Below are positions 26,802 to 63,612 of a stretch of 64,000 bases of DNA, piece by piece (position 1 is the stretch's first letter; each line of letters starts with the position of its first letter). The DNA lies in the IMG/VR virus record IMGVR_UViG_3300032334_001019, positions 1 to 64,000 of that record. The stretch is one strand, 5' to 3'. The notes below the pieces were generated by a model that ran no database searches, was not told the origin of the DNA, and was given only the letters and a program-made list of their open reading frames with translations. Source of the stretch: a virus. Made by a program: the position numbers and the translations under genes.

Positions 26802-26877
26802 TGGGGTGTAACTCAGATGGTAGAGTGCCGAACTGTTAATTCGGATGTCGCAGGATCGATACCTGCCACCCCAGCCA
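26802..26877 (+). tRNA. tRNA-Asn (GTT), CCA encoded
   Basis: Cloverleaf: acceptor TGGGGTG/CACCCCA, D-arm ACTC/GAGT, anticodon arm CCGAA-CTGTTAA-TTCGG (GTT), T-arm GCAGG/CCTGC, then G and CCA. 76 bases. Confidence 0.92.
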
Positions 26878-26951
26878 GGTCCGTTAGAATAGTTGGTTAG
26901 TTCGCCACCCTGTCACGGTGGAGGTCACGGGTTCAAGTCCCGTACGGATCG
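26878..26951 (+). tRNA. tRNA-Asp (GTC)
   Basis: Cloverleaf: acceptor GGTCCGT/ACGGATC, anticodon arm CCACC-CTGTCAC-GGTGG (GTC), T-arm ACGGG/CCCGT. 74 bases, no encoded CCA. It abuts the tRNA-Asn CCA with no spacer, so both are cut from one precursor. Confidence 0.92.
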
Positions 26952-45423: not shown

Positions 45424-46080
45424 TTAATTTCTTAAAAAGTATTTAAATTCTGGTTCATATGGAAAGTCTATGCTATCAAGTCTAGCAGTTCTTTCTTCTT
45501 CTGTTATCTCACAACCAAAACAAACCATTGTATATCTTGTATTACCAGCAGTTACCTTGTGTATTTGATGCTGATATGAGTATGCAGATGGGAACAATAG
45601 AAAGTCTCCAGCCTTTGGCTTAATCTTTACTCCAAAATGAACAAACTCTAGTTCTCCGCCTTCATAGTCATCATTAGGATAGTAAACCATAGAAACTGTT
45701 CTAGGTGTTCCATAAGAATCATCTGGATGCATAGAGAAAAACTCATTATGCTCAAACTTTGTAATTCTAAATGCTTCACGAGTAATTGGTGCAATATCCC
45801 ACATCTGACAATATGAGTCTACTATCTCCTCAAAGGCATCAGCAATTTCATCACTCTGATAAATCCATGTCGTGCTTGCCTTCTTGCCAATTTCTTCATC
45901 ATAATAGTCTTCTCTTTGGAACTTACCTTCTGCTTCAAGTCTACGCATTAGGTCCATTCCACCTGGAAATGTATTGTGGTAAATATGAATTCCTGGCGCT
46001 GGTGAGTCAAAATTAAATTCATTTCCTTTACGGCTGCGTGTAATTCCACGGGCCTTGAGTTCTAGTTTTTGCTTGTCCAT
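45424..46080 (-). CDS. 2OG-Fe(II) oxygenase (prolyl-4-hydroxylase-like), minus-strand island
   Basis: 218 residues from ATG 46080, preceded by AAGGAGAAG. HxD at H118/D120 (FSMHPDDS), MVYYPNDDYEGGELEF, distal histidine in YQHQIHK (H171 or H174) and R182 (NTRYTMV). It is the closest relative of the gene at 30785. It is the only minus-strand gene between 1 and 49.1 kb, with its own promoter and terminator, which suggests separate timing. Confidence 0.83.
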   Translation of the reverse strand: MDKQKLELKARGITRSRKGNEFNFDSPAPGIHIYHNTFPGGMDLMRRLEAEGKFQREDYYDEEIGKKASTTWIYQSDEIADAFEEIVDSYCQMWDIAPITREAFRITKFEHNEFFSMHPDDSYGTPRTVSMVYYPNDDYEGGELEFVHFGVKIKPKAGDFLLFPSAYSYQHQIHKVTAGNTRYTMVCFGCEITEEERTARLDSIDFPYEPEFKYFLRN

Positions 46081-46182: not shown

Positions 46183-46587
46183 ATGGTAAAAACAGCACTG
46201 GATCTTTTTAATGATCCATTTTTTAATACCTTCTCAAATTTTCAGAAGGTAACAACAACAACAAACTATCCACCTTATAACCAGATTAAATTAAATGATA
46301 CAGAGTATATTCTTTCATTTGCTTTGGCTGGTTTTTCTAAGGATGATGTCTCAGTATCGCTAGACAATCGCAAACTTACAATCAGGGGCGAGAAGCAGGA
46401 TGCTGAGTTGCCAGAGGGTGCAGAGTATCTACATAAGGGCATTGCTGCTCGTAAGTTCACGGATATCTTTACCCTTCCTGAGTTTATAGAAGTTGTTGGG
46501 GCTGAATTTAAGGACGGTATCTTAGATATCAGACTTGAAAAGCAGATCCCAGAAGATAAACTACCAAAGACCATTGAAATTAGGTAG
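46183..46587 (+). CDS. Small heat-shock protein (Hsp20/alpha-crystallin)
   Basis: 134 residues. The alpha-crystallin domain fills about 32-125: YILSFALAGFSKDDVSVSLDNR, KLTIRGEKQ, and the A-x-F-x-x-GIL signature (AEFKDGILDIRL, about 108-119). The N-terminal FFNTFSNF arm is typical. It holds unfolding proteins in solution; phage Hsp20 genes are known in aquatic myoviruses. Own promoter and leader. Confidence 0.92.
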   Translation: MVKTALDLFNDPFFNTFSNFQKVTTTTNYPPYNQIKLNDTEYILSFALAGFSKDDVSVSLDNRKLTIRGEKQDAELPEGAEYLHKGIAARKFTDIFTLPEFIEVVGAEFKDGILDIRLEKQIPEDKLPKTIEIR

Positions 46588-46593
46588 TATAAT
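46588..46593 (+). promoter_or_regulatory. TATAAT -10 box for candidate ncRNA
   Basis: TATAAT begins one base after the Hsp20 stop; transcription would start near 46600, just before the first arm of the structured region. No canonical -35. Confidence 0.5.
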
Positions 46594-46599
46594 AAACTA

Positions 46600-46714
46600 T
46601 TCCGTCATGATACATGCAGTTGCTTTATAAGCGACCTTATTGCTGAGTACGGAGAAACCCTGGATCGCTACCTGGGAAGACCTGAGTAAGTCTGTAAACT
46701 GCTCTTTATCATGC
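46600..46714 (+). ncRNA. Candidate structured small RNA (unknown class)
   Basis: No reading frame. Closing helix CATGATA (46606-46612) with TATCATG (46707-46713), a small internal loop, then GCAGTT (46616-46621) with AACTGC (46697-46702). Inside are three hairpins: ATAAG/CTTAT (46627-46631/46636-46640), CCC-T-GG/CC-T-GGG (46658-46663/46671-46676), and AGAC/GTCT (46678-46681/46690-46693). A promoter lies before it, and the next gene has its own leaderless promoter, so it looks like a separate RNA rather than a leader. No known class recognised. Confidence 0.55.
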
Positions 46715-46720
46715 TATAAT
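46715..46720 (+). promoter_or_regulatory. TATAAT -10 box, leaderless
   Basis: Seven bases before the ATG at 46728. Confidence 0.5.
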
Positions 46721-46727
46721 GGTAGTT

Positions 46728-47177
46728 ATGGAAGAATTAATTAATCTACTAAAGGTGCTGCTTGCAGATAATATTACTCTCAAGTTAAAGGCTCATGGCT
46801 ATCACTGGAATGTAGAAGGTGATGATTTTCTTCAGTACCACGAACTTTTTGAAAATATTTATACAGATTATGATGAAGCAACAGATACCTATGCTGAATG
46901 GCTTCGTAAATTAGATACATATGCACCATTTAAACTATCAAGATTTATTCAACTTAATGAAGTTGGAGAACCTGATGTTACTTCAGATCCAATGATGATG
47001 TCTGCAGATCTGCTTATGGCTAATGACATGGTTCTTGCTAAGTTAGTAGATGCTTGCGATATGGCAACATCAAACAAACAACACGCACTTGCAAACTTTT
47101 TTGCAGAGCGTATGGATCAACATCAAAGATGGCACTGGATGTTATCTGTTTCAATTAAAACAGTAGGAGAAGAATAA
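46728..47177 (+). CDS. Dps/ferritin-like protein
   Basis: 149 residues from ATG 46728. AHGYHWNVEGDDFLQYHELFEN and DYDEATDTYAEWLRKLD (about 23-60) match the Dps ferroxidase region (His, Trp, Asp/Glu). Four-helix layout. It would store iron or guard DNA from peroxide; the CDGSH and thioredoxin genes are other redox genes here. A second ligand site in the last helix (DQHQRWHW) is also His-rich. Confidence 0.75.
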   Translation: MEELINLLKVLLADNITLKLKAHGYHWNVEGDDFLQYHELFENIYTDYDEATDTYAEWLRKLDTYAPFKLSRFIQLNEVGEPDVTSDPMMMSADLLMANDMVLAKLVDACDMATSNKQHALANFFAERMDQHQRWHWMLSVSIKTVGEE

Positions 47178-52612: not shown

Positions 52613-52685
52613 CACCCCTGGCAGGAATCGAACCTGCGACGCATGGCTTAGAAGTCCATCGTTCTGTCCACTGAACTACAGAGGT
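52613..52685 (-). tRNA. tRNA-Arg (TCT)
   Basis: Acceptor ACCTCTG/CAGGGGT (one G-U), anticodon arm ATGGA-CTTCTAA-GCCAT (TCT), T-arm GCAGG/CCTGC. Reads AGA/AGG, common in this AT-rich genome. No encoded CCA. Confidence 0.88.
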
Positions 52686-52689
52686 ATTG

Positions 52690-52762
52690 CATCTCCAACG
52701 GAATTCGAATCCGTGTTGCTGCCGTGAAAGGGCAGAGTCCTAGGCCACTAGACGATGAAGAC
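52690..52762 (-). tRNA. tRNA-Glu (TTC)
   Basis: Acceptor GTCTTCA/TGGAGAT (two G-U pairs), anticodon arm CTGCC-CTTTCAC-GGCAG (TTC), T-arm ACGGA/TCCGT. No encoded CCA. Confidence 0.87.
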
Positions 52763-52766
52763 ATAG

Positions 52767-52840
52767 TACATCTGGAAGGACTTGAACCTTCGGCTCTCCG
52801 CATATAAGGCGGGTACTCTAACCAACTGAGTTACAGATGT
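52767..52840 (-). tRNA. tRNA-Ile (TAT)
   Basis: Acceptor ACATCTG/CAGATGT, anticodon arm CCCGC-CTTATAT-GCGGA with TAT anticodon, T-arm GAAGG/CCTTC. Decodes AUA; one C-A mismatch at the base of the anticodon stem. Confidence 0.82.
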
Positions 52841-52844
52841 GTAG

Positions 52845-52919
52845 TACACCAGGTAGGACTTGAACCTACGAATAGCCGAATTATGAGTTCGGTGCCTTAA
52901 CCAACTTGGCTACTGGTGC
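52845..52919 (-). tRNA. tRNA-Met (CAT)
   Basis: Acceptor GCACCAG/CTGGTGT, anticodon arm CCGAA-CTCATAA-TTCGG (CAT), T-arm GTAGG/CCTAC. Lacks the GGG/CCC anticodon stem of initiator tRNA, so elongator Met; an Ile2 tRNA (modified CAT) cannot be excluded. Confidence 0.85.
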
Positions 52920-62344: not shown

Positions 62345-62373
62345 AAAAATTGAGCAGTTTATTCTCATGCTCA
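62345..62373 (-). terminator. Hairpin terminator after DUF932 gene
   Basis: TGAGCA (62351-62356) pairs with TGCTCA (62368-62373); on the minus strand ATTTTT follows. It ends the gene at 62387. Confidence 0.55.
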
Positions 62374-62386
62374 GGAGATTTTTTAT

Positions 62387-63403
62387 TTATGCAATCTGCA
62401 AAGTGCTTTGCACAATTTTGAGCAAACGATTTTTCTCTGCGTTAATTGCAGGGTCAAATCCGCTTGCACTTGCAAGGATAGATTCGTTAGAACCACCACG
62501 AGCAGAACGATACCAATCTAAACGCTCTGTGAGCGCATTGAAAGCGCCCCATGCGTTACCAGCAATCATTCCGTTAAACTCGCCTGTGTAGATGTCGTTA
62601 ATAACATCGACCTTGTTTTCCCACTTCTTGAACGCACCCTTAGAGTCTTTTTCAGGCTTAGGGTATGCAGCAAGAATGATGTCGTTGAATTGCTTAGCAT
62701 TGACTTCTGTTTCAATCATAGCCTTAGCCATGAGGTCAAAAGAATCCATGTACTTATGAGCCATGCCTAATGTCTCACGAGCAACTTGTACCTTGCCAGC
62801 AGCAGTTTGCGTGTGGCGAATCTTGAAAGATTGCTTGATGCCATTCTTACGCTTAGTAGTGTTAAGTGCAAGATTGAGGGTGTTAGCGCACACAACACGA
62901 ACAGGTGTTATGCTTGCTTGAATAGCGATTGAGCCATCGTGTGATGTGTTGATTAGAAGATAAGTCTTTACCTTATCTGCTACACCGTTAGGGTCAAGAA
63001 CTGTTTCACGCTCTAGTGCTAAAGCGCCAAATACTACACGACCACCCTTGATTGAGCCAGCGGTCTCCCAACGACCTCCGCCGTCAAGAATGTTATCACC
63101 AAATGAAAATAAATCTTCATTCTGCATAACATGATAACGCTCACCTACGACACCTAAAATGTCTGTCTGTGAATTATCTGTAGGGTTAGTACGCAAAACA
63201 TACTGGTATGTCTTGTCGCTTGTTAAATGTGATGGGGTTTCCAAATCTTCCAGACGAACATTCCAACCATTGAGGTTTGCAGCCTCTAGCATTTCTGCTG
63301 TTGTTTTTTCTTCTGTAAATACGGTACCCAATCCATGCCAAGCGGGTTCACGAAATGATGCGAATGAAGCCTTACCATTTTGTGTTTCGATTTCATGTGC
63401 CAT
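62387..63403 (-). CDS. DUF932 phage/plasmid-type protein
   Basis: 338 residues from ATG 63403, preceded by AAAGGAG. PAWHGLGTVF (about 20-29), the LGVVGERYHVMQNEDLFSF block (about 80-98) and RVVCANTLNLAL (about 179-190) are the signature of the DUF932 phage/plasmid protein family. The family is very abundant in phages with unknown role, often expressed early at high level. The terminator and promoter mark it as a single-gene unit. A longer frame from 63550 lacks a site. Confidence 0.85.
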   Translation of the reverse strand: MAHEIETQNGKASFASFREPAWHGLGTVFTEEKTTAEMLEAANLNGWNVRLEDLETPSHLTSDKTYQYVLRTNPTDNSQTDILGVVGERYHVMQNEDLFSFGDNILDGGGRWETAGSIKGGRVVFGALALERETVLDPNGVADKVKTYLLINTSHDGSIAIQASITPVRVVCANTLNLALNTTKRKNGIKQSFKIRHTQTAAGKVQVARETLGMAHKYMDSFDLMAKAMIETEVNAKQFNDIILAAYPKPEKDSKGAFKKWENKVDVINDIYTGEFNGMIAGNAWGAFNALTERLDWYRSARGGSNESILASASGFDPAINAEKNRLLKIVQSTLQIA

Positions 63404-63612
63404 GAGTTTACTCCTTTGTTGTTGTTGAGATTTAAGTATAACAGGATGGGCTGACAAATGCAAATCGGGATAGTTAAACATGGGCAATTTGGACATGGGA
63501 AAAGTTTGACTGATCATAACGGCGTGTCGACTTGACAGGGGACGTGGCAAAATTTTGCAGGGATTGAAGGAGCAGTTTTAAAACATGCTTAGGTTTTATT
63601 AGTAGCCCCCTA
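63404..63612. other. Intergenic region with promoter and repeats
   Basis: No gene seen. It holds the DUF932 promoter, two ACATGGG copies (15 bases apart, in ACATGGGCAATTTGGACATGGG, shown as positions 63478-63499), and a GC-rich block near 63516-63540. Probably a control region. Confidence 0.4.
63435..63440 (-). promoter_or_regulatory. TATACT -10 box of DUF932 gene
   Basis: Minus-strand TATACT with a TTTGCA 18 bases further upstream; leader of about 25 bases before the ATG at 63403. Confidence 0.5.

Follow-up and report, generated by a model that had tools for sequence, protein, structure and literature searches.

A compact pseudoknot of phage genomes between hsp20 and dps: a candidate transcript 3'-end element

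The window analyzed here, a stretch of 64,000 nt that is part of a 118-kb virus record, carries between its hsp20 and dps genes a compact H-type pseudoknot. Computation reveals two paired stems, a wide spread among phages, a characteristic spacing to stop codons and tRNA genes, a G-poor tail and an association with hsp20. Judging from this positional evidence, we put at about one in two the probability that the pseudoknot is one copy of a widespread phage transcript 3'-end element, which would cap and protect transcripts as a terminator hairpin does. Such an element would fold shortly past a stop codon, or where a short RNA ends, leaving enough room for a ribosome positioned on the stop codon. 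The two stems of the element, which probably stack as one helix of about 10 pairs, would do the job of the terminator hairpin and presumably block 3'-to-5' exonucleases; the 3' end itself would be made in the short G-poor tail, by leaky termination if the tail is U-rich, by RNase P ahead of a tRNA, or by some other nuclease. In the window, the pseudoknot would end a short RNA of about 110 nt, probably starting at the TAGTATAAT box on the hsp20 stop codon.

The hsp20 unit of the window and its relatives

The Hsp20 stop codon (46585-46587) and the dps start codon (ATG at 46728) enclose a gap of 140 nt that contains no gene, as an earlier note on this DNA had stated (Table 1). The two further signals which it described are also present, namely a TATAAT box just before the structured stretch (46588-46593, within TAGTATAAT), and an own promoter for the leaderless following gene, with TGCTATAAT ending 7 nt upstream of the ATG. 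The TAGTATAAT box is probably the start signal of a short RNA beginning near position 46600; no good -35 element was found for it in the window. The predicted conserved structure consists of a UCCGU/ACGGA helix, hairpins and a terminal H-type pseudoknot, which reads GAC-CU-GAGUA-A-GUC-UGUAAAC-UGCUC in the window, stands there as a single rather than a tandem copy, and was also recovered by a pattern search of the whole source record. Elsewhere in the window, a 2OG-Fe(II) oxygenase gene (45427-46077, minus strand) is divergent to hsp20, and tRNA genes form two clusters (26802-26951, plus strand, two genes; 52613-52919, minus strand, four genes).

Table 1. Features of the window that bear on the pseudoknot and its unit
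Feature	Positions	Strand	Observation
Hsp20 gene, constant upstream partner	46183-46587	+	Pfam PF00011, E 2.6e-16
TAGTATAAT, -10-like box over the hsp20 stop codon	46585-46593	+	box at the hsp20 stop conserved
Predicted 5' domain, type A: helix 46601-46605 with 46649-46653 (UCCGU/ACGGA), hairpin 46619-46635	46601-46653	+	
Hairpin CCC-GG/CC-GGG, loop around AUCGCUA	46658-46676	+	pairs formed: 5 of 6 in the window, 6 of 6 in L032 and L002
H-type pseudoknot	46678-46704	+	covariation in 95 copies with unrelated flanks among the matches listed; kept in close homologues
Stem 1 (S1) and loop 1 (L1)	S1 46678-46681 with 46690-46693; L1 46682-46683		L1 is CU
Stem 2 (S2), loop 2 (L2) and loop 3 (L3)	S2 46684-46688 with 46700-46704; L2 46689; L3 46694-46699		L3 is GUAAAC
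U/A-rich tail UUUAUCAUG after the pseudoknot	46705-46713	+	position G-poor across copies
TGCTATAAT, extended -10 box of leaderless dps	46712-46720	+	same layout in L012, L006 and L078
Dps-like gene, ferritin fold	46728-47177	+	Pfam PF00210, E 2.3e-17
Second pseudoknot copy	62352-62378	-	8 nt past the stop of a DUF932 gene (62387-63550)

The association with hsp20 was surveyed in loci chosen by Dps alone, which gave 27 distinct Hsp20 3' regions, with 608 other ORFs of at least 100 aa as the control. A pseudoknot lies within 200 nt in 20 of the 27 Hsp20 3' regions vs 12 of the 608 other ORFs, and TATAAT or TACAAT stands at the stop codon of 20 of the 27 Hsp20 genes vs 40 of the 608. Between the -10 box and the pseudoknot, the hsp20 units carry exchangeable hairpins, and the genes downstream vary. 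Of the Hsp20/Dps setting given in the earlier note, the Hsp20 side is the constant partner and the dps side is not. In some relatives (L078 and L076), the pseudoknot lies directly 3' of hsp20, so that the 5' domain is an optional insert. Since in the relatives a conserved -10 box at the hsp20 stop is followed by a structured segment ending in the pseudoknot, a unit with its own promoter is plausible at the window locus. For the window 5' domain, a trans-acting or stand-alone role is possible, as is a trans-acting RNA having the pseudoknot-type structure.

The relatives contain further structured segments behind hsp20. Near-identical hairpin modules (GUCGGGGGAGACAGCGAC, CCCCGUCACUGGGGAGUCGCAG and GGGUCGCUACCC) recur after hsp20 in different phages (L093:2425-2553, L107, L283:12064-12160, L268, L319 and L030). 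A second structured RNA without a match in Rfam follows hsp20 ahead of a small HNH-like gene (L003:2003-2125, L019, L010, L025, L031 and L090); it has TACAAT or TATAAT at the hsp20 stop and a long closing stem, CCCCACACAGG/CCUGUGUGGGG, around a conserved AGGACCUU and AGUUACC. In L020, L026, L054 and L032 this HNH-adjacent RNA comes after the pseudoknot unit, which suggests that RNA genes are grouped in small clusters in these phages.

Covariation, spread and the fold drawn earlier

Pairing in the two stems was assessed with a pairing-free scan of IMG/VR, for which the pattern CCTGNNNATGNNNNTAAACTNNNC leaves three pairs per stem free. Among the matches listed, all three free S2 pairs are present in 113 of 121 distinct copies, and 95 copies were left after the removal of those sharing any flanking 14-mer. 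In these 95 copies among the matches listed, S1 is paired in 92.3% of cells (shuffles 42.9 ± 2.7, maximum 51.9) and S2 in 95.4% (shuffles 76.6 ± 1.2, maximum 80.7); with slid partners, pairing of the same copies reached at most 48.8% for S1 and 11-36% for S2, but 73% at one slide. All four Watson-Crick pairs occur in S1. L2 is a single base in 313 of 326 copies among the matches listed, and L3 is usually NTAAAC, the AAAC end of which is fixed by the scanner pattern.

The 5' domain of the window (type A) is nearly invariant in the close homologues L032 and L002, and a group of 16 sequences (type B) has a different 5' domain, the parts common to both types being the UCCG/CGGA helix and the terminal pseudoknot. 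In type B, 94.5% of cells pair, at most 46% do so in slid controls, and 17 two-sided changes stand against 6.3 in shuffles; these changes are confined to the 5' helices, the pseudoknot stems of this group hardly varying and hence saying little there.

The earlier note had drawn a closed multi-hairpin shape, of which the two outer helices, of 7 bp (CAUGAUA/UAUCAUG) and 6 bp (GCAGUU/AACUGC), are indeed both found in the minimum-energy fold of the window sequence, but support beyond chance is absent: the fold has a z of -1.00, 29 of 200 shuffles fold equally well, and the opposite strand reaches a z of -1.08. The covariation of the drawn helices was checked in the close homologues (L032 and L002/L003, from loci fetched by the Dps protein); in L032 and L002 the 5' arms are invariant, without compensatory change. 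The alignments place a G-G clash in the inner helix of L032, and in the outer helix 6 of 7 pairs persist, the remaining one being a U-U mismatch. Moreover, the drawn inner helix competes with S2 of the pseudoknot, the better-supported structure to which one of its arms belongs. S2 is kept in the window, L032 and L002 (GAGUA, GAGCA and GAACA opposite UGCUC, UGCUC and UGUUC), with a compensatory change from GAGCA/UGCUC to GAACA/UGUUC, as read by eye from the alignment at the correct GAGUA, a second GAGUA upstream having been matched automatically instead. The whole unit as a trans-acting small RNA in the closed multi-hairpin shape is thus barely credible: this shape is the minimum-energy fold and has the -10 box standing before it, but it lacks compensatory changes, clashes with a covarying stem and does not occur in the units of types B to E found at this place. 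A covarying structured RNA between Hsp20 and Dps is present, as the earlier note proposed, but with a structure other than the one drawn. The window case shows that energy folding of a single sequence misleads, because standard folding cannot draw pseudoknots.

The exact core CCTGRGYATGANTNTAAACTGCYC has at least 120 matches in IMG/VR, where the reversed core of unchanged composition has none, and only 15 copies occur in 257 Gb of bacterial and archaeal genomes. Carriers include, as read by eye, Mycobacterium phage Labelle, Roseobacter phage SIO1, Lentibacter ICBM2, Paracoccus ParKuw1 and the Synechococcus phages S-H35 and S-EIV1 (one S2 mismatch), together with the Lactobacillus phages phig1e and Lj771 and about 85-90 S. 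aureus phage records, whose copies have four pairs in stem 2. Matches in Chaseviridae (phiEcoM-GJ1 and Erwinia Berlingot) have an imperfect S1 and were not counted as sure members. A first BLAST search against phages returned weak matches only, all outside the pseudoknot, which was missed because it is short; a 32-mer query retrieved the phage copies.

At the gathering score and at E values up to 10, Rfam 15, whose models do not score the crossing stem, holds no family for the pseudoknot and gave otherwise chance-level matches, so that the novelty of the structured RNA with respect to Rfam stands; matches elsewhere were limited to tRNA, tmRNA and one fluoride riboswitch. No description of the pseudoknot was found in the open literature, by concept or by literal motif, and open papers yielded nothing on actinophage Hsp20/Dps RNAs. 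More tentatively, at somewhat less than even odds, we propose that thousands of phage genomes (an extrapolation from the small share of non-pairing matches in IMG/VR) across many host phyla share an RNA family not described before, whose compact pseudoknot would be a general 3'-end cap in the place of a terminator hairpin, and to which some phages, namely those with hsp20, would attach exchangeable hairpin modules, giving small RNAs.

Several copies lie in other surroundings. GTDB genomes of Omnitrophota, Neomarinimicrobiota, Aminicenantes, Anaerolineales and Desulfotomaculaceae carry the pseudoknot after a tiny ORF encoding a conserved peptide (for example MKVTIRYMLRPVAHCKEGC, AHCSDGC); these loci (L205-L209 and L213-L216) are near metal and redox genes, and L208 has two tandem pseudoknots. 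A pseudoknot-like copy is found in the Acinetobacter plasmid NZ_CP139209.1 (L343:1001-1027) and in six similar small plasmids, in a non-annotated stretch upstream of repM. In Lentibacter phage ICBM2 (L222:1480-1526), the annotated glutaredoxin start overlaps the pseudoknot and is thus probably annotated too early.

Genomic position and the candidate functions

Most copies lie 3' of a stop codon on the same strand, the gap between the stop and S1 having a lower limit near 5 nt and being most often 5-6 nt, a spacing that holds across 76 unrelated upstream protein families (ORFs being called mechanically by a script, and several loci being related). No common function was found among the upstream or downstream genes of the copies, so that the RNA is not a riboswitch for one pathway; the earlier note had likewise favored a stand-alone regulatory RNA over a riboswitch. 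At least 17 copies, some from related loci, end 2-12 nt before a tRNA gene on the same strand, where about 0.2 would be expected by our own estimate; these copies (L132, L151, L169, L261, L324 and others) stand directly after an upstream stop, and the tRNAs are those for Asp, Arg, Gly and Ser. In the nine bases after the pseudoknot, G makes up about 5% vs 20% in the control and recovers at +10, and runs of at least four T occur in 22% of tails vs 4.7% in shuffles. Such a G-poor tail would suit the RNA-DNA hybrid where a transcript is released as well as a cleavage site free of structure.

Other functions were weighed against these observations. That the element is mainly a transcription terminator, i.e., a leaky intrinsic one with the pseudoknot as its stem followed by a weak RNA-DNA hybrid, is unlikely. 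The nine-base, G-poor and T-enriched tract has the length of such a hybrid, clear U-tracts follow the Staphylococcus and Lactobacillus copies, and 80alpha has a terminator-like hairpin at the same position; however, polymerase must read through into the tRNA genes that begin 2-12 nt on, which excludes obligatory termination at those copies, many copies are internal to operons, the next gene starting no more than 40 nt away, T-runs do not become significantly more frequent when a convergent gene follows (Fisher p 0.42), and the window tail is only UUUAU. No terminator-like site was found at the pseudoknot in the window or in B236. An action on ribosomes at the upstream stop, whether by readthrough, by recycling or by preventing reinitiation at the gene that follows, is distinctly improbable. 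Frameshift and readthrough pseudoknots have a spacer of 5-6 nt, which equals the spacing seen here with its sharp lower limit. Against such an action, the reading frame past the stop does not stay open more often than the other two, the stop codons are an ordinary mix in which TAA dominates, and many copies either are separated from any stop by 20 to more than 100 nt or form the end of a non-coding unit, as in the window. A readthrough or frameshift stimulator in particular was rejected on frame openness: frame 0 is open for at least 30 codons in 20 of 150 copies, and the other frames in 21 and 32.

The element might instead be recognized by a protein of the phage or the host, or shield the RNA of the downstream gene against 5'-to-3' decay by RNase J. 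Such a role is improbable, even though, in the hsp20 units of L283, L093 and L319, the element is closely followed by a gene that has its own ribosome binding site, and abundant capsid genes lie downstream in the Staphylococcus and Lactobacillus phages. Some hosts of pseudoknot-bearing phages are said to lack RNase J; the distance to the upstream stop is tight, that to the downstream start is loose, and a protein would find few fixed bases to recognize, since S1 and a large part of S2 are free to vary.

The 3'-end element remains the preferred reading, for which the covariation of both stems, the stop spacing across unrelated families, the tRNA adjacency, the G-poor, T-enriched tail and the lack of a common function among neighboring genes argue. 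Where a tRNA gene adjoins, an mRNA cut by RNase P would carry the pseudoknot close to its new 3' end. S. aureus phage B236 and Lactobacillus phig1e have the pseudoknot between their minor-head and scaffold genes, and the copies of these two host groups thereby sit where 80alpha and phi11 have a terminator-like hairpin. The minor-head proteins of B236 and 80alpha match weakly, and no homology was found for scaffold and capsid; with head genes not clearly homologous, the comparison of hairpin and pseudoknot is positional only. Against the 3'-end reading, most tails are too U-poor for classical termination; in the Staphylococcus and Lactobacillus phages, the capsid genes downstream are strongly needed and protection of the upstream part brings no obvious gain; and the closely following genes in some hsp20 units make a 5' role possible.

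Relation to known RNA elements and significance

The phage pseudoknot resembles Rho-independent terminator hairpins and REP-type intercistronic stabilizing hairpins in being a compact helix just past a gene, a place at which hairpins protect 3' ends. It differs from them in being a pseudoknot, usually without a full U-tract, with strongly conserved loops and with read-through into tRNAs. With T-runs of at least four in just 22% of copies, a GC-rich hairpin followed directly by a U-tract, i.e., an ordinary intrinsic terminator, does not describe it. Luteovirus-type frameshift and MuLV readthrough pseudoknots are short H-type knots with a two-base loop 1, a one-base loop 2 and an A-rich loop 3, placed about 5-8 nt behind the decoding site. 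The phage element is a short H-type knot of similar loops and spacing; unlike those, it belongs to DNA phages, no slippery site was seen and the frame past the stop is not specially open.

STAXI RNA (RF01728) consists of tandem pseudoknots with UUCG loops in Enterobacteriales (PMC2864571) and likewise concerns pseudoknots in bacterial and mobile DNA; a match to RF01728 is absent, and the window copy is not tandem. The pseudoknot upstream of gene 32 in T4 and T2 is bound by gp32, which represses that gene (PMC3014915). It is also an H-type knot in phage mRNA, in that case of one gene only, and the copies described here do not lie upstream of a single-strand binding protein gene. The manA and wcaG motifs (RF01745 and RF01761) are phage RNAs in presumed 5' UTRs and candidate riboswitches, manA also occurring near ibpA (Hsp20) genes with a proposed pseudoknot (PMC2864571). 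The present element shares with manA the phage origin, the Hsp20 neighborhood and a pseudoknot; it differs from both motifs in its position, and no Rfam match to either was found on checking. Type III antitoxin RNAs (ToxI and relatives, with repeats upstream of a toxin nuclease gene) were rejected on the neighbors without a common function and the missing Rfam match, and riboswitches with pseudoknots of the preQ1 or SAM-II type on copies that follow stop codons, diverse neighbor genes and, again, Rfam.

A strongly covarying element that occurs in phages of many hosts and is absent from Rfam 15 and from the descriptions found in open papers would represent a new building block of phage gene expression, and the pseudoknot offers a sequence-defined part to test and annotate. 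Since carriers with laboratory hosts exist, such as Mycobacterium phage Labelle, the question of its function is directly answerable. If it is a true cap, it would explain how the ends of phage cistrons are protected without an ordinary terminator hairpin.
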